Shown here one piece after another: positions 38,674-49,789 of a stretch of 64,000 nucleotides of DNA; positions within the stretch are counted from its first letter, which is position 1, and each line of letters begins with the position of its first letter. The notes beneath the pieces were generated by a model, which saw nothing but the letters and a program-made list of their open reading frames with translations, searched no databases and had not been told where the DNA came from. Location of the stretch: the NCBI RefSeq assembly GCF_000425365.1, contig NZ_AUDH01000004.1, positions 62,001 to 126,000 on the forward strand, written 5' to 3'. Origin of the DNA: Rubritepida flocculans DSM 14296 (lineage in GTDB: Bacteria; Pseudomonadota; Alphaproteobacteria; Acetobacterales; Acetobacteraceae). The position numbers and the translations under genes are program-made.

Positions 38674-41364
38674 ATGCTCGACAAGGCCTTCGACCCCGCG
38701 GCGATGGAGGCGCGGCTCTACGCCGCCGCCGAGGCCGCCGGCGTCTTCTCCGCCGATCCCGCCCGCCCCGCCGCGCCCTTCACCATCGTCATCCCGCCGC
38801 CCAACGTCACGGGCAGCCTGCACATCGGCCATGCGCTGAACAACACGCTGCAGGATGTGCTGGTGCGCTGGCGCCGCATGCAGGGGCGCGATGCGCTCTG
38901 GATGCCCGGGACCGACCACGCGGGCATCGCGACGCAGATGGTGGTGGAGCGGCTGCTTGCCGCCCAGGGCCAGGAGCGCCGCGCCATGGGGCGCGAGGCC
39001 TTCCTCAGGCGCGTCTGGGAATGGAAGGCGGAGAGCGGCGGCGCCATCACCCGGCAGCTTCGCCGCCTCGGCGCCTCGCTCGACTGGCCGCGCGAGCGCT
39101 TCACCATGGATGAGGGGCTCTCGCGCGCCGTCATCGAGGTCTTCGTCACGCTGCACAAGCAGGGGCTGATCTATCGCGACCGCCGGCTGGTGAACTGGGA
39201 CCCCAAGCTGCTCACCGCCATCTCCGACCTCGAGGTGGAAAGCCGCGAGGTGAAGGGCACGCTCTGGACGCTGCGTTACCCCATCGAGGGCGCGCCGGGC
39301 CGCTTCATCCAGGTCGCCACCACGCGGCCCGAGACGATGCTGGGCGACACGGCCGTGGCCGTGCACCCCGATGATCCGCGCTTCGCCGACCTGGTCGGCC
39401 GGTTCGCCATCCTGCCGCTGACGGGCCGGCGCATTCCCATCATCGCCGACGCCTACTCCGACCCCGAGAAGGGCACGGGCGCGGTGAAGATCACCCCCGC
39501 GCACGATTTCAACGACTTCGAGGTGGGCCGCCGCCATGGCCTGCCCATGCCGAACGTCCTCGACCCCGAGGCGCGCATCTGCCTCGAGGAGATCGCGGGC
39601 GAGCTGGCGGAGATTCCGGGCGTGGCGGAGCCCGACTTCGTGCGCGCGCTGGCCGGGCAGGAGCGCTTCGCCGCGCGCAAGGCGATCCTCGAGAAGCTGG
39701 AGGCGCTGGGCCTTCTGGAGAAGGCCGAGCCGCACACCCACCAGGTTCCGCATGGCGACCGCGGCGGCGTGCCGCTCGAGCCGCGCCTGACCTGGCAGTG
39801 GTATTGCGACGCGGCGACGCTGGCCAGGCCCGCCATCGAGGCGGTGGAGACGGGCCGCACCGTCTTCGTGCCCAAGCAGTGGGAGAACACCTTCTTCGCC
39901 TGGATGCGCGACATCCAGCCCTGGTGCATCTCGCGCCAGCTCTGGTGGGGCCACCAGATCCCCGCCTGGTACGGCCCCGACGGGCACATCTTCGTCGAGC
40001 GCACGCAGCAGGAGGCGGAGGCCGCCGCCCGCGCCCATTACGGGCGGGAGGTGGCGCTGCGCCGCGACGAGGACGTGCTGGACACCTGGTTCAGCTCCGC
40101 GCTCTGGCCCTTCTCCACCCTCGGCTGGCCCGAGCGCACGCCGGAACTCGCGAAGCACTACCCCACGGATGTGCTGGTCACGGGCTTCGACATCATCTTC
40201 TTCTGGGTGGCCCGGATGATGATGATGGGCCTGCACTTCATGGGCGAGGTTCCGTTCCGACACGTCGTCATCCACGGGCTGGTGCGCGACGAGCGCGGGC
40301 AGAAGATGTCCAAGTCCAAGGGGAACGTGATGGACCCCCTGGAGCTGATCGACGCCTATGGCGCGGATGCGGTGCGCTTCACGCTCTGCGCGCTGGCTTC
40401 GCCGGGGCGGGACATCAAGCTCTCGAAGCAGCGGATGGAAGGCTACCGCGCCTTCGCCACCAAGCTGTGGAACGCGGCGCGCTTCCTCGAGATGAACGGG
40501 GTGCGCCCCGATCCGGCCTGGAAGCCCGCGGACGCCAAGGGCATGCTCGCGCGCTGGCTGCTGGAGAAGGCGGATGCGGCGGCCTTCGAGGCGAACCGCT
40601 CGCTCGAGGCCTTCCGCTTCGACGACTACGCCTCCGGCCTCTACGCCTTCCTCTGGAACACCTATTGCGACTGGTTCATCGAGTTCGCCAAGCCCGTGCT
40701 GAACGGGCCCGACGGGCCGGAGAAGGAGGAGGTGCGGGGGGTGGCGCAGCATGTGCTGGGCCTCGCGCTGCGCCTGCTGCATCCGGTGATGCCCTTCGTC
40801 ACGGCGGAGCTGTGGGAGAAGCTGGGCTACGGGGATGCGGTGGCGCTGACCACGACTCCCTATCCGGAGGGGCGCGAGGCCGCCGCGGAGGCCGGCGCCG
40901 CGCTGGTGGACCAGGCCATCGAGGCGATCAGCGCCATCCGCTCGGCGCGCTCCACGCTGAACGTGCCCGCATCGGCCGTGCTGCCGCTGCGCGTGAGCGG
41001 GGCGCAGACGCAGGGCATCCGCGCCTTCGCGCCGCAGATCATGCGCCTCGCGCGCGTCGCCGAGCCGGAGTTCGTGGCCGCCGCCGCCGAGGGCGCGGGC
41101 CCCGGCGCCTTCTGCGCCGCGATGGGGGCGGAGCTGTTCCTGCCGCTCGCGGGCGTGGTGGACCTCGCCGCCGAGCGCGCGCGCCTCGGAAAGGAGCGCG
41201 CGCGCGCGGAGGCCGAGCGCGCCAAGCTCGAAGCCAAGCTCGCCAACCCCGGCTTCCGGGCCAAGGCCGAGGAGGCCGTGGTGGCCGAGACCGAGGAACG
41301 GCTGCAGGATGCCGCGGCCGAGATCGCCCGCCTCGACGCCGCGCTCACGCGCATCGCCAACTGA
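38674..41364 (+). CDS. valS: Valyl-tRNA synthetase
   Basis: An 896-residue class Ia aminoacyl-tRNA synthetase. The HIGH motif is at 50-53 (TGSLHIGHALNN) and KMSKS at 544-548. The connective editing domain lies between, with TTRPETMLGDTAVAVHP typical of ValRS. The C-terminal coiled coil is visible from about 820 (ERARLGKERARAEAERAKLEAKL). The ATG at 38674 gives MLDKAFDPAAMEARLY, the usual family start. A GTG at 38659 is possible; neither has a good ribosome-binding site. ilvD follows 22 bases later. Confidence 0.97.
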   Translation: MLDKAFDPAAMEARLYAAAEAAGVFSADPARPAAPFTIVIPPPNVTGSLHIGHALNNTLQDVLVRWRRMQGRDALWMPGTDHAGIATQMVVERLLAAQGQERRAMGREAFLRRVWEWKAESGGAITRQLRRLGASLDWPRERFTMDEGLSRAVIEVFVTLHKQGLIYRDRRLVNWDPKLLTAISDLEVESREVKGTLWTLRYPIEGAPGRFIQVATTRPETMLGDTAVAVHPDDPRFADLVGRFAILPLTGRRIPIIADAYSDPEKGTGAVKITPAHDFNDFEVGRRHGLPMPNVLDPEARICLEEIAGELAEIPGVAEPDFVRALAGQERFAARKAILEKLEALGLLEKAEPHTHQVPHGDRGGVPLEPRLTWQWYCDAATLARPAIEAVETGRTVFVPKQWENTFFAWMRDIQPWCISRQLWWGHQIPAWYGPDGHIFVERTQQEAEAAARAHYGREVALRRDEDVLDTWFSSALWPFSTLGWPERTPELAKHYPTDVLVTGFDIIFFWVARMMMMGLHFMGEVPFRHVVIHGLVRDERGQKMSKSKGNVMDPLELIDAYGADAVRFTLCALASPGRDIKLSKQRMEGYRAFATKLWNAARFLEMNGVRPDPAWKPADAKGMLARWLLEKADAAAFEANRSLEAFRFDDYASGLYAFLWNTYCDWFIEFAKPVLNGPDGPEKEEVRGVAQHVLGLALRLLHPVMPFVTAELWEKLGYGDAVALTTTPYPEGREAAAEAGAALVDQAIEAISAIRSARSTLNVPASAVLPLRVSGAQTQGIRAFAPQIMRLARVAEPEFVAAAAEGAGPGAFCAAMGAELFLPLAGVVDLAAERARLGKERARAEAERAKLEAKLANPGFRAKAEEAVVAETEERLQDAAAEIARLDAALTRIAN

Positions 41365-41386
41365 ACCAGCCTCGAAGGAAACGCCG

Positions 41387-43105
41387 ATGACCCAGTGGGA
41401 CAAGTCCAGGCTGCCGAGCCGCCATGTGAGCGTGGGGCCGGAGCGCGCGCCGCACCGCAGCTACTACTACGCGATGGGCATGACGAAGGAGGAGATCGCC
41501 TCGCCGCTGGTCGGCGTCGTCTCCTGCTGGAACGAGGCCGCGCCCTGCAACATCGCCCTCAGCCGCCAGGCGCAGGCCGCCAAGCGCGGCGTGAAGGAGG
41601 CCGGCGCGGCGCCGCGCGAGTTCACCACCATCACGGTGACCGACGGCATCGCCATGGGCCATCAGGGGATGAAATCCTCCCTCGTCTCGCGCGAGGTGAT
41701 CGCGGATTCCATCGAGCTGACCATGCGCGGCCACTGCTACGACGCGCTGGTGGGGCTCGCGGGCTGCGACAAGTCGCTGCCGGGCGTGATGATGGTGATG
41801 CTGCGCCTGAACGTGCCCTCCGTGTTCATGTATGGCGGCTCGATCATGCCCGGGAAGTTCCGCGGCAAGGACGTGACGGTGCTGGACGTGTTCGAGGCGG
41901 TGGGCACCCACGCCGCGGGCCGGATGAGCGATGCGGAGCTGGAGGAGCTGGAGCAGCACGCCTGCCCCGGCGCCGGCGCCTGCGGCGGGCAGTTCACCGC
42001 CAACACCATGGCCTGCATCAGCGAGGTGATCGGCCTCGCGCTGCCCTATTCGGCCGGCGCGCCCGCGCCGGACGAGGAGCGCGACGCCTACGCCTACCGC
42101 TCCGGCCGGGCGGTGGTGGAGCTGCTGCGCGCCAACATCCGCCCGCGCGACATCGTGACCCGGAAGGCGCTGGAGAATGCGGCGCGCATCGTGGGCGCGA
42201 CGGGCGGCTCGACCAATGCGGCGCTGCACCTGCCCGCCATCGCGCACGAAGCGGGCATCGACTTCCCGCTGGAAGAGGTGGCGCGGCTGATGCGCGACAC
42301 GCCCCACATCGCCGACCTCAAGCCCGGCGGGCGCTATGTGGCGATGGACGTGCACCGCATCGGCGGCGTGCCCGTGATCATCAAGTCGCTGCTGGAGGGC
42401 GGGCTGCTGCACGGTGACTGCCTGACCGTGACGGGCAAGACGCTCGCGGAGAACCACAAGGACGTGGTGTTCCCCACCAACCAGGACGTGGTGCGCCCCG
42501 TCTCCAAACCCATCTCGAAGATCGGCGGCGTGGTGAGCCTGTTCGGCAACCTCGCCCCCGATGGCGCGATCGTGAAGATCGCAGGCATGCAGAACCTGCG
42601 CTTCGAGGGCACGGCGCTGTGCTTCGACTGCGAGGAGGACGCCTTCGCCGCCGTGGAGGCGCGCGCCTACAAGCCCGGCGACGTGATCGTGATCCGCTAC
42701 GAGGGGCCCAAGGGCGGGCCCGGCATGCGCGAGATGCTCTCCACCACCAGCGCGATCTACGGCCAGGGCATGGGCGACAAGGTGGCGCTGATCACCGATG
42801 GCCGCTTCTCGGGCGCCACGCGCGGCTTCTGCATCGGCCATGTGGGGCCGGAGGCCGCGGTGGGCGGGCCCATCGGGCTGCTGAAGAACGGCGACCGCAT
42901 CGTGATAGACGCCGAGAAGGGCACGATCGACGTGCTGCTGAGCGAGGAGGAACTCGCGAAGCGCCGGGCGGAGTGGACGCCGCGCGGGCACGACTTCAAC
43001 TCCGGCGCGCTCTGGAAATACGCGCAGACCGTGGGCCCCGCCCGCTATGGCGCGGTGACGCATCCGGGCGCGAAGGCGGAGACGCACACCTACGCCGATA
43101 TCTGA
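41387..43105 (+). CDS. ilvD: Dihydroxy-acid dehydratase
   Basis: A 572-residue iron-sulfur dehydratase for isoleucine/valine and pantothenate precursor synthesis. It converts 2,3-dihydroxy-acids to 2-oxo-acids. Cluster-region motifs are [23 protein letters not shown] and [16 protein letters not shown]. The C-terminal [19 protein letters not shown] is the ILVD signature. GAAGGA before the ATG supports the start. It stands directly after valS, so a valine-linked pairing is possible, but no other ilv genes are here. Confidence 0.95.
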
Positions 43106-43185: not shown

Positions 43186-43773
43186 ATGACTGAACCCGCC
43201 GTGGCGGAGGCGCTCGCGCCCGCCATGACCCCCGCCGAAATCCGCCTGCTGCGGGAAGCCGCTTCGCGCGCCGCTTCGGCGGTCGAGTTCGGCGCGGGCG
43301 GCAGCACCATCCTGCTTCTCGAGGCGGTGGAGGGGCCGCTCGTCTCCGTGGAGAGCGACTCCGCCTGGCTCGCGCGGCTCGGCGCGCATCCCCTCTGCCG
43401 CACCGCCCGGGATTCAGGGCGCTGGTTCCCGCTGCACGCCGATCTCGGCCCGGTCGGGGCCTGGGGCTATCCGGCCGACCCGCGCCGACATGCGGACGGG
43501 CATCTCTACTGGAACGCGCCCTGGGATCTCTGCACCGAGCCCGGCCTCGTGCTGGTGGACGGGCGCTTCCGCGTGGCCTGCGCGCTGGCCGCGCTGGCGC
43601 GCGTCGCGCCGGGCGGCTTCGTCGCGGTGCATGATTTCTGGGGCCGCAACGCCTACCGCGTTCTGCTCGACCATGCGGAGCTGGCCGCGACGGCGGCCAG
43701 TCTCGTGCTGCTGCAGCGCCGGCCCGGCGCGCCGCCGCCATCGCCGGAGGCCTTCGGGCGCGATCCGCGATGA
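43186..43773 (+). CDS. Putative class I SAM methyltransferase-fold protein next to flagellin
   Basis: A 195-residue protein of uncertain function. EFGAGGSTILLLEAVEG (about 34-50) looks like the glycine-rich SAM-binding loop of Rossmann methyltransferases, with VSVESD as the acidic strand after it. LVLVDGRFRVACALAALARVAPGGFVAVHDFWGR (about 122-155) resembles motifs IV-VI. The substrate is not evident. The gene ends 94 bases before flagellin and runs the same way, so a part in flagellin or cell-surface modification is an inference from position. No signal peptide. Confidence 0.6.
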   Translation: MTEPAVAEALAPAMTPAEIRLLREAASRAASAVEFGAGGSTILLLEAVEGPLVSVESDSAWLARLGAHPLCRTARDSGRWFPLHADLGPVGAWGYPADPRRHADGHLYWNAPWDLCTEPGLVLVDGRFRVACALAALARVAPGGFVAVHDFWGRNAYRVLLDHAELAATAASLVLLQRRPGAPPPSPEAFGRDPR

Positions 43774-43867
43774 CGCCGCGCGCCGCGCAACCCTTCCTTA
43801 ACCCGCCGCCGGCGATGATCGCCCCGGCCCGCAATCCGCGAGCCTGATCGGCAAAGGAAAAACACCG

Positions 43868-44773
43868 ATGTCCCTCAACTCGGTCAACACCAACATCGGC
43901 GCCATGGTGGCGCTTCAGTCGCTGAACCGCACCAACGAGGAAATGGCGGCGACGCAGAAGCGGATTTCGACCGGCTTCCGCGTGGCGGACGCGCGCGACG
44001 ACGGCGCCGCCTTCGCGGTGGCGGAGCGCATCCGCGGCGACCTCGCGGCCACGGCCTCGGCCAACCAGCAGCTTGGCGGCGTGAAGGGCCTGCTCGACAC
44101 GACCCGCACCGGCCTCGAGAACATCTCGAAGGCGCTGCAGAGCGTGAAGGCCACGGTGGTGAAGCTGGCGGACTCGAACATCACTCCGGGCCAGCGTCAG
44201 CAGTACATGGCGGCCCTGAAGGAGCAGTTCGCGCAGATCGCCAACTTCATCTCCGACACCACCTACAACGGCCAGTCCATGCTCAACACGACCGCAACCG
44301 CGGGCGACACGGGCACGACGCTGGGCCAGATCCGCACCGTCCGCAACGGGGAGGGCGCGACCTACGCCTTCGCGAAGATCGCCACCGCCGGGATCAACGG
44401 GCAGGCCGGCTTCACGGGGCTGACCAACCTCGGCATGACGACGAGCGGCGTTGCCTCCGGCACCACGCTTCTCGCGGCGATCAGCAGCTTCGCTGCGGCG
44501 CTGACCACGGGCGGCGCGGTGAACCAGGCGATCAACACCACGCTGACGGCGCTGAACAACCTCGGCAGCTACAGCCGCTACGTGGACAGCCAGATCAACT
44601 TCAACAAGGCGAAGATGGACGCGCAGGAGGCGGGCATGGGCGCGCTGATCGACGCGGACCTGGCCAAGGAGTCGGCGCGGCTGCAGTCGCTGCAGATCCG
44701 CCAGCAGCTCGGCACCCAGGCGCTCAGCATCGCGAACCAGGCGCCGCAGGCGCTGCTCTCGCTGTTCCGCTGA
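43868..44773 (+). CDS. Flagellin
   Basis: A 301-residue filament protein. The N-terminal D0/D1 helix SLNSVNTNIGAMVALQSLNR with ARDDGAAFAVAERIRGD, and the C-terminal helix ending QALSIANQAPQALLSLFR, are standard. The middle (about 135-215) is short and rich in Thr, Ala, Gly and Ser, offering many possible O-glycosylation sites. AAAGGAAA precedes the ATG. I see no sigma-54 or sigma-28 promoter in the 94 bases upstream. Exported by the flagellar type III system; no hook or basal-body genes lie in the window. Confidence 0.95.
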   Translation: MSLNSVNTNIGAMVALQSLNRTNEEMAATQKRISTGFRVADARDDGAAFAVAERIRGDLAATASANQQLGGVKGLLDTTRTGLENISKALQSVKATVVKLADSNITPGQRQQYMAALKEQFAQIANFISDTTYNGQSMLNTTATAGDTGTTLGQIRTVRNGEGATYAFAKIATAGINGQAGFTGLTNLGMTTSGVASGTTLLAAISSFAAALTTGGAVNQAINTTLTALNNLGSYSRYVDSQINFNKAKMDAQEAGMGALIDADLAKESARLQSLQIRQQLGTQALSIANQAPQALLSLFR

Positions 44774-44808
44774 TGCGTTCCTGACCAACAGAAAGGAGGG
44801 CTGGCAGG

Positions 44809-44940
44809 ATGCCGCCTTTCCCTCTTTCCGCCGCCGCGCTCGCCGCACCTGCCGGCTCGCCGCGCGCCGCTTTCCCGCCCACCGCGAGCTCGCCGCGCGG
44901 ATGGCGCGCCGCGCTGGGCTTTCTTCCGGAGGCCCGCTGA
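44809..44940 (+). CDS. Candidate 43-residue small protein between flagellin and flaF
   Basis: A short open frame with an ATG at 44809, preceded by AAGGAGG at 44793-44799 with a nine-base spacer. This is one of the best ribosome-binding sites in the window. The predicted peptide starts MPPFPLSAAALAAPAGSPRA and ends in FLPEAR; it is rich in Ala, Pro and Arg, with no membrane helix or known motif. Its stop is three bases before the flaF ATG, so it could be a real small flagellar protein or a leader that couples translation to flaF. I do not recognise it. Confidence 0.45.
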   Translation: MPPFPLSAAALAAPAGSPRAAFPPTASSPRGWRAALGFLPEAR

Positions 44941-44943
44941 TCC

Positions 44944-45282
44944 ATGTCACTCGCCACGAGCGCCGGCGCCAGCCGCTACCGCCGCCACCTCACGCCCAAG
45001 CAGATGGAGGCCGAGGTGTTCAGCCGCGTCGTGCGCGGCCTGCGCGAGACGATGGACCAGCCAGGCAGCATCGCGCAGGCGCGCGCCATCGCCGACACCC
45101 GCCGCCTCTGGGACGCGGTGCTGAGCTGCGTGCTCGATCCCGCCAACCAGCTTCCCGCGCCCCTGCGCGCCCAGATCGCCGGTCTGGCGCGCGTCGTGCT
45201 GCGCGAATGCGAGGCCGAGGCGCCCGACGCCGCCTTCCTGATCGAGATCAACGAACAGATGGCCGCGGCCCTCTGGAGCTGA
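44944..45282 (+). CDS. flaF: Flagellar biosynthesis regulator FlaF
   Basis: A 112-residue cytoplasmic protein matching FlaF. ADTRRLWDAVLSCVLDPANQLP (about 50-71) and FLIEINEQMAAALWS near the end are the recognisable parts. In Caulobacter FlaF is needed for flagellin synthesis and assembly and works with the repressor FlbT. No flbT gene is present on either side. GGAGG lies 11 bases before the ATG. Confidence 0.85.
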   Translation: MSLATSAGASRYRRHLTPKQMEAEVFSRVVRGLRETMDQPGSIAQARAIADTRRLWDAVLSCVLDPANQLPAPLRAQIAGLARVVLRECEAEAPDAAFLIEINEQMAAALWS

Positions 45283-45295
45283 GGAGAACCTCCCG

Positions 45296-46738
45296 ATGCT
45301 GGCTTCCGCTGCCGAAACCGCCCCCGTCGCCGCGCTGGCGCGGCTGATGGAGCGGGGCACGACGCTGCTGCAACAGGGCCGTGCCGCGGAATCCGTCGAG
45401 CTTTTCCGCCGCGCCGCCGCCGTCCCTGATGCGCCGGCCCTCGCCCATGGGCTGCTCGCCGAGGCGTTGGAGGCCAGCGGCAAGCTGCCCGAGGCGCTGG
45501 ACGCGGCCGACCGCGCGGTGAGCGCCGCCGGGGCCGATCCTGCATGGCTGCGCGCCCGGGCGCGCATCCGCCGCGCGCTCGGCCAGCACCTCGCCGGGCT
45601 GGACGACGCCGCCGCGGCCGTGATGGCCGATCCCTCCGACATCGAATCCAAGTCCTTGCTCGGCATCTGCCTTTCGGAGGCCGGCCGGCACGACGAGGCG
45701 CTGCTGCTGCTGCATCAGGCCTTCTCGGCCGAGCCGCACTCCGCGCAGCGGGCGGCCCTGCTCGCCTTCGCCTTCCTGCGCGCCGGCCGCTATGCCGCGG
45801 CGGAGGAGGTCTTCGCGCTGGCCGAGGCGATGGCCCCGCAGGCGCCCGGGATCGCGGCGCTGCGCGCACAGAACGCGCTGGCCGCCGGGGAGCCCGAGCG
45901 CGCGGCCGCCATCGCGGAGGCCGCCGTGGCCCGCTGCCCCGGCGATGCGCCGCTGCTCTCCGTGCTCGGGCAGGCGCGCCAGCGCCTGGGCCAGCACGCG
46001 GCCGCGCTTGACGCCTATGCCGAGGCGCTGCGCCTCGATCCGGCCAGCGGCTACCTGCGCCACCTGGTCGCCGCGCTCGGCGGCGAGCCCCCGCCCGCCC
46101 GGGCCGACAGCCGCTACGTCGCCGACGTGTTCGACGGCTATGCGAGCCGCTTCGAGGCCTCCCTCTTCGCGCTCGGCTATCGCGTGCCCGGGATGATGCT
46201 GCGCATGGTCGAGCGCGCGCGGCCCGAGGTCGCGGCGGGGCGGGCGAAGCTCGGCCCCGTGCTCGATCTGGGCTGCGGCACCGGGCTGATGGGCGCCACC
46301 CTGCACGACCTGCTGGGCGATGCTCTCGTCGGCGTGGACATGTCGCCGCGCATGATCGAGGAGGCGCGGGCCAAGGGCGTCTACACGCGGCTCGACTGCC
46401 GCGACATCGAGGCCGCGCTGCGCGAGGAGCAGGGCCTCTACGACGTGATCCTGCTGGCCGATGTGCTCTGCTATTTCGGCGATCTGGACGGCGTTCTGCC
46501 CGCGCTTCGCGCGCGCCTCGCGCCCGGCGGGCTGCTGCTGCTCAGCGTGGAGGCCGCGGCCCCCGAGGCGCGCTGGGTGCTGGCCCGCACCGGCCGCTAC
46601 GCGCATGGCGAGGCCTATTTGCGGGAGGCGCTGCGCAGCGCCGGCCTCGCCCCGCGCGAGTTCCGCTCCGAACCGATCCGCTGGGAGGGCGAGAACCCGG
46701 TGCAGGGCCACGTTGTCTGCGCGACGTCGGAGGGCTGA
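45296..46738 (+). CDS. TPR-repeat protein with C-terminal SAM methyltransferase domain
   Basis: A 480-residue two-part protein. Residues 1 to about 255 form tetratricopeptide-like helical pairs (for example LAFAFLRAGRYAAAEEVFALAEAMAP shown by pattern near 155-180). RYVADVFDGYASRFEASL (about 277-294) opens the methyltransferase half, with SAM motif VLDLGCGTG at 322-330 and VGVDMSPRMIEEAR next. Similar TPR-methyltransferases are annotated as predicted methyltransferases of unknown target. It follows flaF by 13 bases with GAGGAG upstream, and touches the glycosyltransferase gene. A role in modifying flagellin or its glycan is inferred. Confidence 0.8.
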   Translation: MLASAAETAPVAALARLMERGTTLLQQGRAAESVELFRRAAAVPDAPALAHGLLAEALEASGKLPEALDAADRAVSAAGADPAWLRARARIRRALGQHLAGLDDAAAAVMADPSDIESKSLLGICLSEAGRHDEALLLLHQAFSAEPHSAQRAALLAFAFLRAGRYAAAEEVFALAEAMAPQAPGIAALRAQNALAAGEPERAAAIAEAAVARCPGDAPLLSVLGQARQRLGQHAAALDAYAEALRLDPASGYLRHLVAALGGEPPPARADSRYVADVFDGYASRFEASLFALGYRVPGMMLRMVERARPEVAAGRAKLGPVLDLGCGTGLMGATLHDLLGDALVGVDMSPRMIEEARAKGVYTRLDCRDIEAALREEQGLYDVILLADVLCYFGDLDGVLPALRARLAPGGLLLLSVEAAAPEARWVLARTGRYAHGEAYLREALRSAGLAPREFRSEPIRWEGENPVQGHVVCATSEG

Positions 46739-46739
46739 G

Positions 46740-49007
46740 ATGGACGGGCTGCCCAGCCGCGAGGCGCTGGCCGCCGCGCTGGCCGAGATGGCGGCGGGCC
46801 GCCCCGCCCGGGCCCTGCCCACGCTGCGCGCGCTGGCCGCCGCCTCGCCGGGGGATGCGGCGGTGCAGCTCAACCTCGGCATGGCGCTGATGGATGCCGG
46901 CCACCTGGCGGAGGCCGAGGCGCCGCTGCTGGCCGCCGCACAGGCCGCGCCCCAGCACCCGGAACCCTGTTTCCGGCTCGCGCGGCTGCGGCATCTGCGC
47001 GGCGATCCGCTGGCCGCCGAAAGCTTCTATCGCGGCGCGCTGGCGCGGGCTCCGGGCCATGTCGCCTCGCTCGCCGGGCTTGCCGAGGTGGCGCGCAGCC
47101 TCGCCCGGCCCGAAGAGGCTGTCTCGCTGCTGCGCGAGGCGCTGCTGCACGCGCCGCAGGATGCGGGCATGCGCCTTGCGCTCGCACGCGCCCTCGTCCA
47201 GTCGGGGCAGGCCGCAAAGGCGCTTGAGGAGCTCGCGCTGCCGCTGCGCGTGGGTGGCCCCGCGGGGCGTCTCGGGGCCGTCTGGGCGGAGGCGCTGCGG
47301 GCGCGGCACGGCGTCGAGGAGGCCCGCGCGCGCGCCGAGGAGGAAGCGCGCGCCCACCCGCTCTGCGCCGCGCGCGCCGCCGGCCTCGCCGCGCTGTGCG
47401 AGGCGGAGGGGCGCGGGGGGGCGGCGCTCTCGGCCTGGAGGGCCGCCGAGGCCCTCGCCCCCGAGGATCCCGATATCCTGGCCGGCCTCGCCCAGTCGCT
47501 GGCGCGCCACCGCGACCATGCCGCCGCCCTCGACGCCTTCGAACGCGCCCTCGCCCTCGCGCCGGATGAACCCGGCCTGCGGGTCGGCCGGGGAGAGCAG
47601 CTCTGGCGGCTGCACCGGCTCTCCGAAGCGGCCGAGGCGCTGCGCGCCGCGCTGCGCGACTTCGGCCCCGATGAGCGCACCCGCGCCACGCTGGCCCTCG
47701 TGCTCGTCTCCCAGGGGCTGCAGGAGGAGGCGATGGAGGAGGCGGAGGCCGCAGGCGGCGAGAACGCGCTGCTGCTCGGCCTCACCAGTGTCGGGCCGTA
47801 TCACCCGGAGGCGGGCCGCGCCGAGGCGCTGGCCGGCCGCGCGCGCGCCCTTCACCAACGCCTTTCGGAGGGTCTGCTGCCCTACACCGCGCCGCCGCCG
47901 CGGGCGGAGGGGCCGTTGCGGCTCGGCCTGCTCTCGGCCCATTTCGGCAAGCATCCGGTGGGCTGGCTCACCGTCGCCGGCATCGAGAACCTGCCGCGCG
48001 ACGCCTTCGAGGTTGACGTCTTCAGCCTGGGGGACCGGCCGGGCGACATCGCCGCCCGCTTCCGCGCCCGCGCCGATGCCTGGCACCTGATCGAGCCCGG
48101 CACGCCCGATGCCGTGCTGCTGGAGCGGCTGCGCGCGGCGCAGCTCGACATCCTCATCGAGCTCGGCGGGCACGGGCAGGGAGGGCGGGTGCGGCTGCTG
48201 CGCCATCGCGCCGCGCCGGTGCAGATCAAGTGGGTGGGCTCCCAGGCCTCCACCACCGGCACGCCCAACATCGACTGGATGCTCACCGACCGCTGGGAGA
48301 CGCCGGAGGGCTTCGAGCCCTTCTACACGGAGCGGCTGCTGCGCATGCCCGATGGCTATGTGTGCTACGCCCCGCCGCCGGCCGCGCCGCCGGTCGCCCC
48401 CACGCCGGCCGGCTTCTCCGGCGCGGTCACCTTCGGCTGCTACAACAACCTCGCCAAGGTCACGCCGCGCGTGCTCGCGGTCTGGGCGCGCATCCTGCGG
48501 GCGCTGCCCGAAGCCCGGCTCGTGCTGCGCACCCATGCGCTGGGTGACGGCCCGACGCGCGAGGGCTTCACCGCGCGGGCGCGCGCCGCGGGGCTCGACC
48601 TCGCGCGGGTGGAGATGCACGGGGCGGTGCCGCATGACCAGCTCCTCGCCGCCTATGGCGAGATCGACATCTCCCTCGATCCCTTCCCCTACACGGGCGG
48701 GCTCACCGTCTGCGAATCGCTCTGGATGGGCGTGCCGGTGCTGACGCTGGTGGGCAGCTCCTTCGCCGGGCGGCACGCCTTCTCGCACCTCTCCAACGTG
48801 GGCCTCGCGGACTGGGCTGTGTTCTCCGAGGAGGAGTATGTGGCCGAGGCGATCCGGCGCGCCAGCGACATCCCGGCGCTGGCGGCGCTGCGCGCGGGCA
48901 TGCGCGCGCGCGTGGCCGCCTCGCCGCTCTGCGACGGGCCGCGCTTCGGGTCCAATCTCGCGGCCGTGCTGCGCCAGGCCTGGGAAGGGCGCGACGGCCC
49001 GGCTTGA
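46740..49007 (+). CDS. TPR-GT41 glycosyltransferase, FlmG-like (candidate flagellin glycosyltransferase)
   Basis: A 755-residue protein with N-terminal TPR repeats (about 1-370) and a C-terminal OGT/SPINDLY-like GT41 domain (about 390-755). The catalytic half begins LRLGLLSAHFGKHPVGW near 395. CYNNLAKVTPRVLAVWARIL is near 567-586, and HDQLLAAYGEIDISLDPFPYTGG near 630-652, with the sugar-nucleotide-binding CESLWMGVPVLTL after it. In Caulobacter, FlmG of the same architecture glycosylates flagellins. Its place in the flagellin/flaF unit supports that role here. The sugar donor is unknown; no nonulosonic-acid synthesis genes lie in the window. One base separates it from the previous stop. Confidence 0.82.
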   Translation: MDGLPSREALAAALAEMAAGRPARALPTLRALAAASPGDAAVQLNLGMALMDAGHLAEAEAPLLAAAQAAPQHPEPCFRLARLRHLRGDPLAAESFYRGALARAPGHVASLAGLAEVARSLARPEEAVSLLREALLHAPQDAGMRLALARALVQSGQAAKALEELALPLRVGGPAGRLGAVWAEALRARHGVEEARARAEEEARAHPLCAARAAGLAALCEAEGRGGAALSAWRAAEALAPEDPDILAGLAQSLARHRDHAAALDAFERALALAPDEPGLRVGRGEQLWRLHRLSEAAEALRAALRDFGPDERTRATLALVLVSQGLQEEAMEEAEAAGGENALLLGLTSVGPYHPEAGRAEALAGRARALHQRLSEGLLPYTAPPPRAEGPLRLGLLSAHFGKHPVGWLTVAGIENLPRDAFEVDVFSLGDRPGDIAARFRARADAWHLIEPGTPDAVLLERLRAAQLDILIELGGHGQGGRVRLLRHRAAPVQIKWVGSQASTTGTPNIDWMLTDRWETPEGFEPFYTERLLRMPDGYVCYAPPPAAPPVAPTPAGFSGAVTFGCYNNLAKVTPRVLAVWARILRALPEARLVLRTHALGDGPTREGFTARARAAGLDLARVEMHGAVPHDQLLAAYGEIDISLDPFPYTGGLTVCESLWMGVPVLTLVGSSFAGRHAFSHLSNVGLADWAVFSEEEYVAEAIRRASDIPALAALRAGMRARVAASPLCDGPRFGSNLAAVLRQAWEGRDGPA

Positions 49008-49039: not shown

Positions 49040-49789
49040 ATGACGCACCGCACCGCCATCGCCAGCCACCGCGGCGGCGCCTTCCTCTGGCCGGAGAACA
49101 GCCTCGCGGCCATCCGCGGCGCCCTCTCCCTGCCGGCCGAGCAGGTGGAGATCGACATCCACGCCAGCGCCGATGGCGAGCCAGTGGTGATGCACGACGC
49201 CACGCTCGATCGCATGACCGACGGCCAGGGCCCGGTGCGCGCCCTCTCCTGGGAGGCGCTCTCGCGGCTGCGGGTGCGCGGAACGGGAGGCGAGCCCGTG
49301 CCGCATCTGAGCGAGGCGCTGGGCCTCGTCGCCGCCGCGGGCCGGGTGCTGCGGCTGGAGATCAAGGCCGACGCCTCGGGCGCGCCTTATCCGGGCCTGG
49401 TCGCGCGCAGCCTCGCCGTGCTCGACGCGGCCGGCTGGCGCGCCCGCACCGTGCTGATGAGCTTCGAACCCGCCACCGTCGCCGAGGCGGCGGCAGCAGG
49501 GGGCTTCGATCAGCTTGTCTGGCTGGCCGATGGCCGGCGACTGCGCGGCATGCGCCCGCAGGATCTGATCGCCCAATGCCGGGCCTGCGGCGCGACCGAA
49601 CTCGGCGTGCACGAGGCCCAGGCGAGCGAAGCCCTGCGGGACGCGCTGCGCGCGGCGGGTCTGCGCCTCTCCGTCTGGGCGGCCAACCATGCCCCGAGCA
49701 TCGCCCGCGCCCTGCGGCTCGGCGTGGACGCCATGGCGACTGACGACCCGCCCCTCGCCCTGCGCCTGCGCGAGAGCGGGCCCGGCTGA
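49040..49789 (+). CDS. Glycerophosphodiester phosphodiesterase family protein
   Basis: A 249-residue GDPD-fold hydrolase, which cleaves deacylated phospholipids into glycerol-3-phosphate and an alcohol. Active-site pieces are ASHRGG (8-13, H10 and R11), PENS (18-21), EIDIH (38-42) and the second histidine in VMHDATLDR (around 51-59). LEIKAD carries the conserved lysine. No signal peptide is seen, so it is probably cytoplasmic. A TTG at 49004 would add 12 residues; the ATG at 49040 fits the family. It could co-transcribe with the glycosyltransferase but is probably unrelated in function. Confidence 0.88.
   Translation: MTHRTAIASHRGGAFLWPENSLAAIRGALSLPAEQVEIDIHASADGEPVVMHDATLDRMTDGQGPVRALSWEALSRLRVRGTGGEPVPHLSEALGLVAAAGRVLRLEIKADASGAPYPGLVARSLAVLDAAGWRARTVLMSFEPATVAEAAAAGGFDQLVWLADGRRLRGMRPQDLIAQCRACGATELGVHEAQASEALRDALRAAGLRLSVWAANHAPSIARALRLGVDAMATDDPPLALRLRESGPG

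Follow-up and report, generated by a model that had tools for sequence, protein, structure and literature searches.

A flagellin locus of Rubritepida flocculans with two TPR enzymes: a likely two-step flagellin-modification cassette conserved in Acetobacteraceae

The window analysed here, a 64,000-nucleotide stretch of the genome of Rubritepida flocculans DSM 14296 (Acetobacteraceae; contig NZ_AUDH01000004.1, positions 62,001 to 126,000 of the forward strand), contains a flagellin gene followed by flaF and by genes for two proteins with tetratricopeptide repeats (TPRs), a TPR-methyltransferase (TPR-MT) and a glycosyltransferase of family 41 (TPR-GT41). Judging from genes and domains, this cassette appears to be a flagellin-dedicated two-enzyme modification system (probability of roughly 0.6), in which flagellin would be O-glycosylated in the cytoplasm, not with a nonulosonate but with another, perhaps GDP-linked, sugar, and would be methylated, before its export with the help of FlaF. 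A sequence-only reading of the window had proposed a locus given over to flagellin modification, with two TPR enzymes, and this proposal is supported both by the domains of the proteins and by the gene neighbourhoods across the family. The parts of the locus, in window positions, are:

43186..43773, + strand: methyltransferase-fold protein of 195 amino acids, accessory gene 5' of flagellin (PF13578 sub-threshold; match to 3cvo_A)
43868..44773, + strand: flagellin of 301 amino acids, the proposed substrate (PF00669, 84.7 bits; PF00700, 49.4 bits)
44799..44815, + strand: conserved 17-nucleotide element GGCTGGCAGRAKGCCGC in the flagellin-flaF interval (alignment of 10 congeneric loci)
44809..44940, + strand: short open reading frame (ORF) of 43 amino acids, probably no gene (ATG in 3 of 10 aligned loci)
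44944..45282, + strand: flaF, flagellin secretion chaperone/regulator of 112 amino acids (PF07309, 62 bits, cut-off 23.6)
45296..46738, + strand: TPR-MT of 480 amino acids (Pfam TPR and methyltransferase models)
46740..49007, + strand: TPR-GT41 of 755 amino acids (PF13844; SPINDLY 7y4i)

From flagellin to TPR-GT41 (43868-49007) the genes are arranged head to tail on the + strand. ORF and domain scans bear out the order read earlier, with its gaps of 1 to 35 bases: flagellin, the short ORF, flaF, TPR-MT and TPR-GT41 are successively separated by 35, 3, 13 and 1 bases, the start of TPR-GT41 being taken as 46740 (46461 is a mechanical extension of the ORF only). When 249 genomes of the Acetobacteraceae were searched, the TPR-MT profile matched 95 of them at 1e-60 or better and 76 with at least 340 bits, and FlaF was found in 193. 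The flaF gene is contiguous with that of TPR-MT in 74 of the 76 genomes, namely 53 with a listed FlaF position, 20 whose loci were fetched, and G250; contig ends interrupt the locus in the other two (G176 is cut upstream, with GT41 present, and G146 is split over two contigs). FlaF positions were listed for 55 of the 76, and in 53 of these FlaF lies on the same strand within 1.2 kb upstream of TPR-MT, the listed FlaF of the remaining two being on another contig. In G250, flagellin, FlaF and TPR-MT share one contig, and the listed FlaF is another copy. Of the 21 genomes devoid of a listed position, 20 were fetched; flagellin, FlaF and TPR-MT are present in all 20, with GT41 downstream in 19 and a contig end in the last, and GT41 adjacency was also scored in part of the 53 genomes with a listed FlaF. 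Among 16 lower TPR-MT hits (200-340 bits) with a listed FlaF, only two lie near it, G082 on the opposite strand and G094 as a TPR-only protein. The sequence-only reading had raised the question of whether TPR-MT genes lie mostly away from flagellin and GT41 genes, and the opposite was seen for the ortholog (within 1.2 kb of FlaF in 53/55, and 20/20 fetched loci). The association of TPR-MT, GT41 and flagellin is not due to chance.

In a first sample of 36 family genomes (G000-G035), the 16 that carry a TPR-MT ortholog are the same 16 that have a GT41 above 400 bits. Flagellin, flaF, TPR-MT and GT41 follow in order in 14 of them, while contig ends interrupt the locus in G001 and G002; the TPR-MT of G034 appeared as two pieces in one search and whole in another. 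In other genera, FlbT and/or DUF1217 are interposed within this order. A named set, with one genome per species and the best 80 loci, overlaps the genomes numbered with G. It includes 45 loci with a methyltransferase-domain score of at least 217, of which 43 have flagellin, FlaF and GT41 on the same strand and two (L130, L165) are contig ends. FlaF accompanies four of the 35 lower-scoring loci (L151, L181, L188, L184), L151 being a cassette just below the cut. A maximum-likelihood tree of 63 methyltransferase domains places 38 cassette TPR-MTs in one group (100/99), the second TPR-MT of the genome (C1) and its relatives in a separate group (100/97), and L181 and L188 in a third with Azospirillum L174 and G082 (98/89). 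The distances of TPR-MT and GT41 correlate across 15 genomes with r = 0.98, which shared ancestry alone would also give. Two cassettes inside the Acetobacteraceae tree group, L122 and L141, come from metagenome-assembled genomes (MAGs) titled Nitrosovibrio and Pirellulales, and are perhaps misbinned contigs.

The TPR-MT combines an N-terminal TPR array (residues ~15-262; TPR_14/TPR_2/TPR_19) with a class I S-adenosylmethionine (SAM) methyltransferase domain (~268-476) that scores above the Pfam cut-offs for Methyltransf_23, 25, 12 and 11, with 47-57 bits. The class I features, a GxGxG motif I and an acidic residue after strand 2, are present, and D324, G326, C327, G328, T329, G330, D348 and D389 are invariant in all 51 aligned sequences (38 from cassettes). 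This invariance of the SAM motif and of the acidic residues argues for enzyme activity of TPR-MT. The locus of G094 (L217:8579-10971) presents flagellin-FlbT-FlaF followed by a TPR-only protein lacking the methyltransferase domain and by the first part of a GT41, which the contig end cuts off, possibly a methyltransferase-less variant of the cassette.

The TPR-GT41 consists of a TPR array and a GT41 domain (~390-749; PF13844 at 111.7 bits against a cut-off of 25), and its closest solved structures are SPINDLY (7y4i, 5.1e-73), then TtOGT and XcOGT. Mapping on the SPINDLY alignment shows H405, N569, N570, K573, Y651 and E659 to be invariant in 16/16 orthologs, K573, H405, Y651 and E659 being the equivalents of SPINDLY K665, H495, Y744 and E752. 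The active-site residue K665 is taken here to correspond to K842 of human OGT. The position of the guanosine-reading K689 is occupied by R597 (R in 10, K in five and H in one of the 16 orthologs), and that of A731 by A638 (A in 10, Q in two, E in three, G in one, and never R). The pattern R597/A638/Y651 leans towards a GDP-sugar rather than UDP-GlcNAc as the predicted donor. Residue rules for the donor choice of GT41 enzymes are given in PMC10027727, which also reports a prokaryotic intermediate group with mixed residue patterns. Like the SPINDLY/GT41 O-glycosyltransferases (PMC9715652, PMC10027727), the locus enzyme joins TPRs to a GT41 domain, with invariant equivalents of K665, Y744, E752 and H495 and a basic K689 site; unlike SPINDLY, it is bacterial and flagellin-linked.

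A further indication on the donor comes from NeuB. FlmG of Caulobacter needs pseudaminic acid made by NeuB, and binds flagellins via its TPR domain (PMC7591256). NeuB was found in none of the 16 cassette genomes, four of which are under 90% complete, and the control search was positive in Caulobacter vibrioides. In the first sample (36 family genomes) it occurs only in G015, which is without the cassette.

With regard to other families, no TPR-MT hit above 290 bits was obtained in 289 genomes of the class. Flagellin adjoins in three (L237, L247, L250) of 29 loci examined with 1.5-kb flanks, out of 63 other-family hits. L237 and L247 come from G439 and G534, two genomes of the same genus; in both, flagellin and TPR-MT have beside them a series of four consecutive GT41-domain ORFs (L264, L265), and NeuB is present. 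The TPR-MT/flagellin association recurs outside the Acetobacteraceae clade, and neither a GT41 partner nor the absence of NeuB is a fixed rule there. In Tagaea sp. (L181) and a Rhodospirillales MAG (L188), flagellin-flaF-TPR-MT has several GT41 ORFs on its flanks, and DUF1217 and FlbT are encoded on the other strand.

In the proposed mechanism, both modifications would be made in the cytoplasm and precede export. TPR-GT41 would use its TPR domain to recruit flagellin, and would transfer a monosaccharide to flagellin Ser/Thr residues from a donor that would not be a CMP-nonulosonate and may be GDP-linked. TPR-MT would dock on the same flagellin and methylate it, most probably on the glycan just attached, and FlaF would pass the modified flagellin to the export apparatus. 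The order of the genes, the intactness of the catalytic motifs, a long-standing and tight inheritance of the cassette together with flagellin and flaF, and donor-site residues that resemble SPINDLY in part are what the sequences show; the docking of the TPRs on flagellin, the Ser/Thr acceptor, the identity of the sugar, the methyl target and the order of the reactions are what we infer. The methyl step finds indirect support in some relatives, which have additional genes for TylF, GT2 and an epimerase. Upstream of flagellin, G003, G004 and G010 have a TylF methyltransferase, a GT2, a second methyltransferase and an epimerase, of which the second methyltransferase and the epimerase are also found in G002 and G013. 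In G027, G034 and G176, a GT2-methyltransferase-epimerase set lies downstream of GT41, and in L124, L148, L166 and L199 GT2 alone is added. An extended, O-methylated glycan would explain these accessory genes best; a methyl group on the polypeptide is possible.

Several observations weigh against this interpretation. The central Ser/Thr fraction of the cassette flagellins amounts to 0.257 vs 0.246, in a comparison whose 72 cassette-plus rows include duplicate genomes of two sets and the unscorable G013, and the Ser/Thr enrichment looked for was thus not seen. SPINDLY residues T747/T748 and H728 are not retained in GT41, where G/L replace T747/T748, and the basic residue equivalent to K689 varies between R (10), K (five) and H (one). 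The gene gmd, for GDP-mannose dehydratase, was found at E<=1e-60 in 10 of the 16 cassette genomes, nine of them above the cut-off, and not in the other six, including the 100% complete G012, which makes GDP-fucose unlikely as a general donor. NeuB is present in genomes with other flagellin-linked GT41s (G036, G037, G439, G534), among which G036 and G037, from other families, have GT41 genes by flagellin or flaF. The absence of NeuB is therefore informative for this clade only, and other flagellin GT41s might use nonulosonates. In G508 (L250, L266) the order is flagellin-TPR-MT-FlaF, with no GT41 in 18 kb and no NeuB hit, and the TPR-MT of L184 lies near FlaF/FlbT with no GT41 in 5.5 kb. The TPR-only form in G094 suggests that the methyl step is dispensable there, and the polypeptide is just as conceivable a methyl target.

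The rival explanation that survives best, unlikely as it seems, is that TPR-MT methylates the flagellin polypeptide, for instance at lysines as reported for Salmonella, Shewanella and Aeromonas, independently of the glycan. Flagellins can carry both glycans and methyl-lysine, as those of Aeromonas and Shewanella do (PMC9290775), and a TPR domain could recruit a protein. Moreover, K31, K99, K249 and K267 are found in more than 80% of cassette flagellins, and the other-family TPR-MTs of G508 and L184 lie by flagellin/FlaF with no GT41 in the stretch seen. However, almost every cassette-minus flagellin of this subfamily has these lysines too, and their conservation was discarded as the sign of a lysine target; T213 is left as a weak lead from the acceptor comparison. 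Within the family, GT41 adjoins in every examined locus with enough contig, the methyltransferase-less G094 apart; the accessory genes in relatives are sugar-related, and the methyltransferase matches listed in the Pfam and NCBIfam scans, through which a relation to FliB was checked, are generic class I. Known systems of flagellin lysine methylation (FliB, PMC4875605; Shewanella and Aeromonas, PMC9290775) likewise yield a methylated flagellin, sometimes together with glycosylation, but the passages of these papers that were consulted describe no TPR-methyltransferase, unlike the locus here.

More doubtful is a role of TPR-MT chiefly in flagellin/FlaF traffic, as its adaptor or regulator, or as a methyltransferase of another flagellar protein, its methyltransferase activity being secondary or lost. 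Such a role would fit the TPR-only form found at the same place in G094 and the position of FlaF immediately 5' of TPR-MT, but not the SAM-binding motif and acidic residues conserved in 51/51 sequences.

It is very improbable that the GT41 is an ortholog of FlmG using CMP-pseudaminic or legionaminic acid. The sequence-only reading had likened the locus to that of FlmG, and the likeness holds for the layout: both enzymes combine N-terminal TPRs with a C-terminal glycosyltransferase at a flagellin locus with flaF, and FlmG, whose TPR domain binds flagellins, modifies them in the cytoplasm, with FlaF as a later chaperone (PMC7591256). Flagellin-linked GT41s are also found in the NeuB-bearing G036, G037, G439 and G534. 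Equivalence beyond this is not supported, as FlmG depends on pseudaminic acid and NeuB (PMC7591256), whereas NeuB was found in none of the 16 cassette genomes and was missing from 35 of the 36 family genomes of the sample. The passages of the FlmG paper that were consulted describe no methyltransferase partner. The other ground is the enzyme family. Five proteins adjoining flagellin in other loci (L101, L102, L092, L222, L228) have the FlmG layout and no GT41 match; a weak GT9 match occurs in L092 only, and their identity to the first one is 26-29%. The locus enzyme is a GT41 by Pfam, and its profile shows no resemblance to those of the C-terminal domains of these five proteins (hhalign probability 0.2%), which are FlmG-like by layout and stood in this comparison in place of Caulobacter FlmG itself. 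FlmG orthology is disfavoured on both counts. Some Acetobacteraceae (L092, L222, L228) have such an FlmG-like TPR protein beside flagellin instead, and NeuB was not found in G029 (L092), the one of these genomes that was searched. As for a chance adjacency of generic TPR-MT and GT41 genes with flagellin, TPR-MT paralogs, presumably COG4976-like, and GT41s do occur elsewhere in many of these genomes, but the idea is refuted by the contiguity of flaF in 74/76 genomes vs 2/16 lower-scoring hits and by the single tree group of cassette TPR-MTs.

The closest precedent is provided by enterobacterial flagellin islands, for which a GT41 of the 'SPINDLY family' and methyltransferases at the flagellin locus have been described as a genomic prediction (PMC4875605). 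According to that paper, the island GT41s, except for eight GT41-11, all contain AdoMet_MTase domains, so that both functions reside in one protein, and the islands are diverse and bear hallmarks of horizontal transfer. GT41 and methylation at a flagellin locus had thus already been linked in print, as predictions. Unlike these islands, the Acetobacteraceae cassette has two separate TPR proteins, forms one conserved clade and lies beside flaF. As far as the searches show, what is new here is the split TPR enzyme pair, its single clade, its link with flaF and the lack of NeuB within that clade; no account of a TPR-methyltransferase/GT41 flagellin pair was found in the open-access literature searched, subscription papers being mostly outside its reach. 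A more specific picture, offered tentatively and with less confidence than the two-enzyme modification itself, is an assembly line on a shared TPR scaffold, in which a SPINDLY-like GDP-sugar GT41 would act with a TPR-docked methyltransferase that caps the glycan, with a single origin in Acetobacteraceae and comparable pairings, among them the GT41 genes arranged in rows, in further families of the Alphaproteobacteria. The cassette is compact and conserved, and lends itself to tests of how a series of cytoplasmic modifications of one protein is programmed by docking domains, a question that the FlmG paper poses for O-glycosylation (PMC7591256). If the proposed function is true, alphaproteobacterial flagellin glycosylation would extend beyond nonulosonic acids, a bacterial GDP-sugar GT41 would be suggested, and a generically named TPR-methyltransferase group would gain a likely role.

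Natural variants, namely a site that has the cassette in some genomes of a genus and not in others, the TPR-only form and a decayed locus, make comparison possible. The site is flanked by two genes outside the system:

41309..43105, + strand: ilvD, left flank (PF00920/PF24877; same flank in six cassette-minus congeners)
49040..49789, + strand: GDPD family gene, right flank (clusters with L082:13236-13979, PF03009 match)

Seven congeners have flaF and lack the cassette. In six of them (G005, G006, G009, G015, G019, G020) the order is ilvD-flagellin-flaF-GDPD, and the contig of G014 shows flaF-GDPD. The contig of G013 is cut after flaF, where the cassette is not scorable, and G011, G016 and G017 gave no flaF hit in the genome. 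Between ilvD and GDPD, G011 (L106) contains a GT41 relic with stop codons that matches residues 348-739 with 46% identity, and the 4 kb compared at this site gave no match to flagellin, flaF or TPR-MT (flagellin was searched at this site only). A decayed GT41 with no flagellin at the site fits the notion that GT41 is useless in the absence of flagellin.

With regard to the methyltransferase-fold gene that had been noticed just before flagellin, its position (43186-43773) stands, as does the fold, given the match to a solved 'methyltransferase-like protein' (PDB 3cvo_A, 1.2e-17); the Pfam score is below the cut-off (PF13578, 15.1 bits vs 26.3). This protein has no match to PF05711 (TylF), which is also missing among the 25 of 32 families listed for TPR-MT, and a PHROGs scan gave one methyltransferase match for TPR-MT and none for the upstream protein. 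Homologs lie immediately 5' of flagellin in G007, G008, G012 and G018, in six of the 45 named high-scoring loci (L112, L113, L114, L118, L119, L121), and likewise in L196, L200, L202, L203, L205 and L207. These sets overlap, L112-L114 being G007, G012 and G008, and L121 and L119 being G164 and G214 (L203, L205). The gene occupies the place that the added genes of other relatives take 5' of flagellin, and it does so in Belnapia too.

The short ORF, which the sequence-only reading had counted as a member of the locus, is disfavoured as a gene. Its ATG is present in the window, L082 and L079 and missing in the other seven of the 10 aligned congeneric loci, and the frame is open in the sister genome G018. 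Since the ATG occurs in 3/10 loci and lies inside the conserved 17-nucleotide element, the 43-amino-acid ORF is probably not a gene, and once it is discounted the gap between flagellin and flaF is 170 bases. The element (44799-44815) stands directly 3' of the flagellin stop, with 15 of its 17 columns invariant in the 10 congeneric loci. An exact copy is present in 29 of 233 loci. These 29 stretches overlap one another and come from 10 genomes of the genus, nine of them cassette-bearing; the tenth is G013, cut after flaF. A promoter/terminator scan gave matches no more numerous than in shuffles. As to a hairpin at the window element, its folding is equalled or bettered by 170 of 200 shuffles, so only the conservation of the sequence counts. 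We read the element as a putative regulatory or RNA element between flagellin and flaF, possibly an attenuator or an RNA-protein site.

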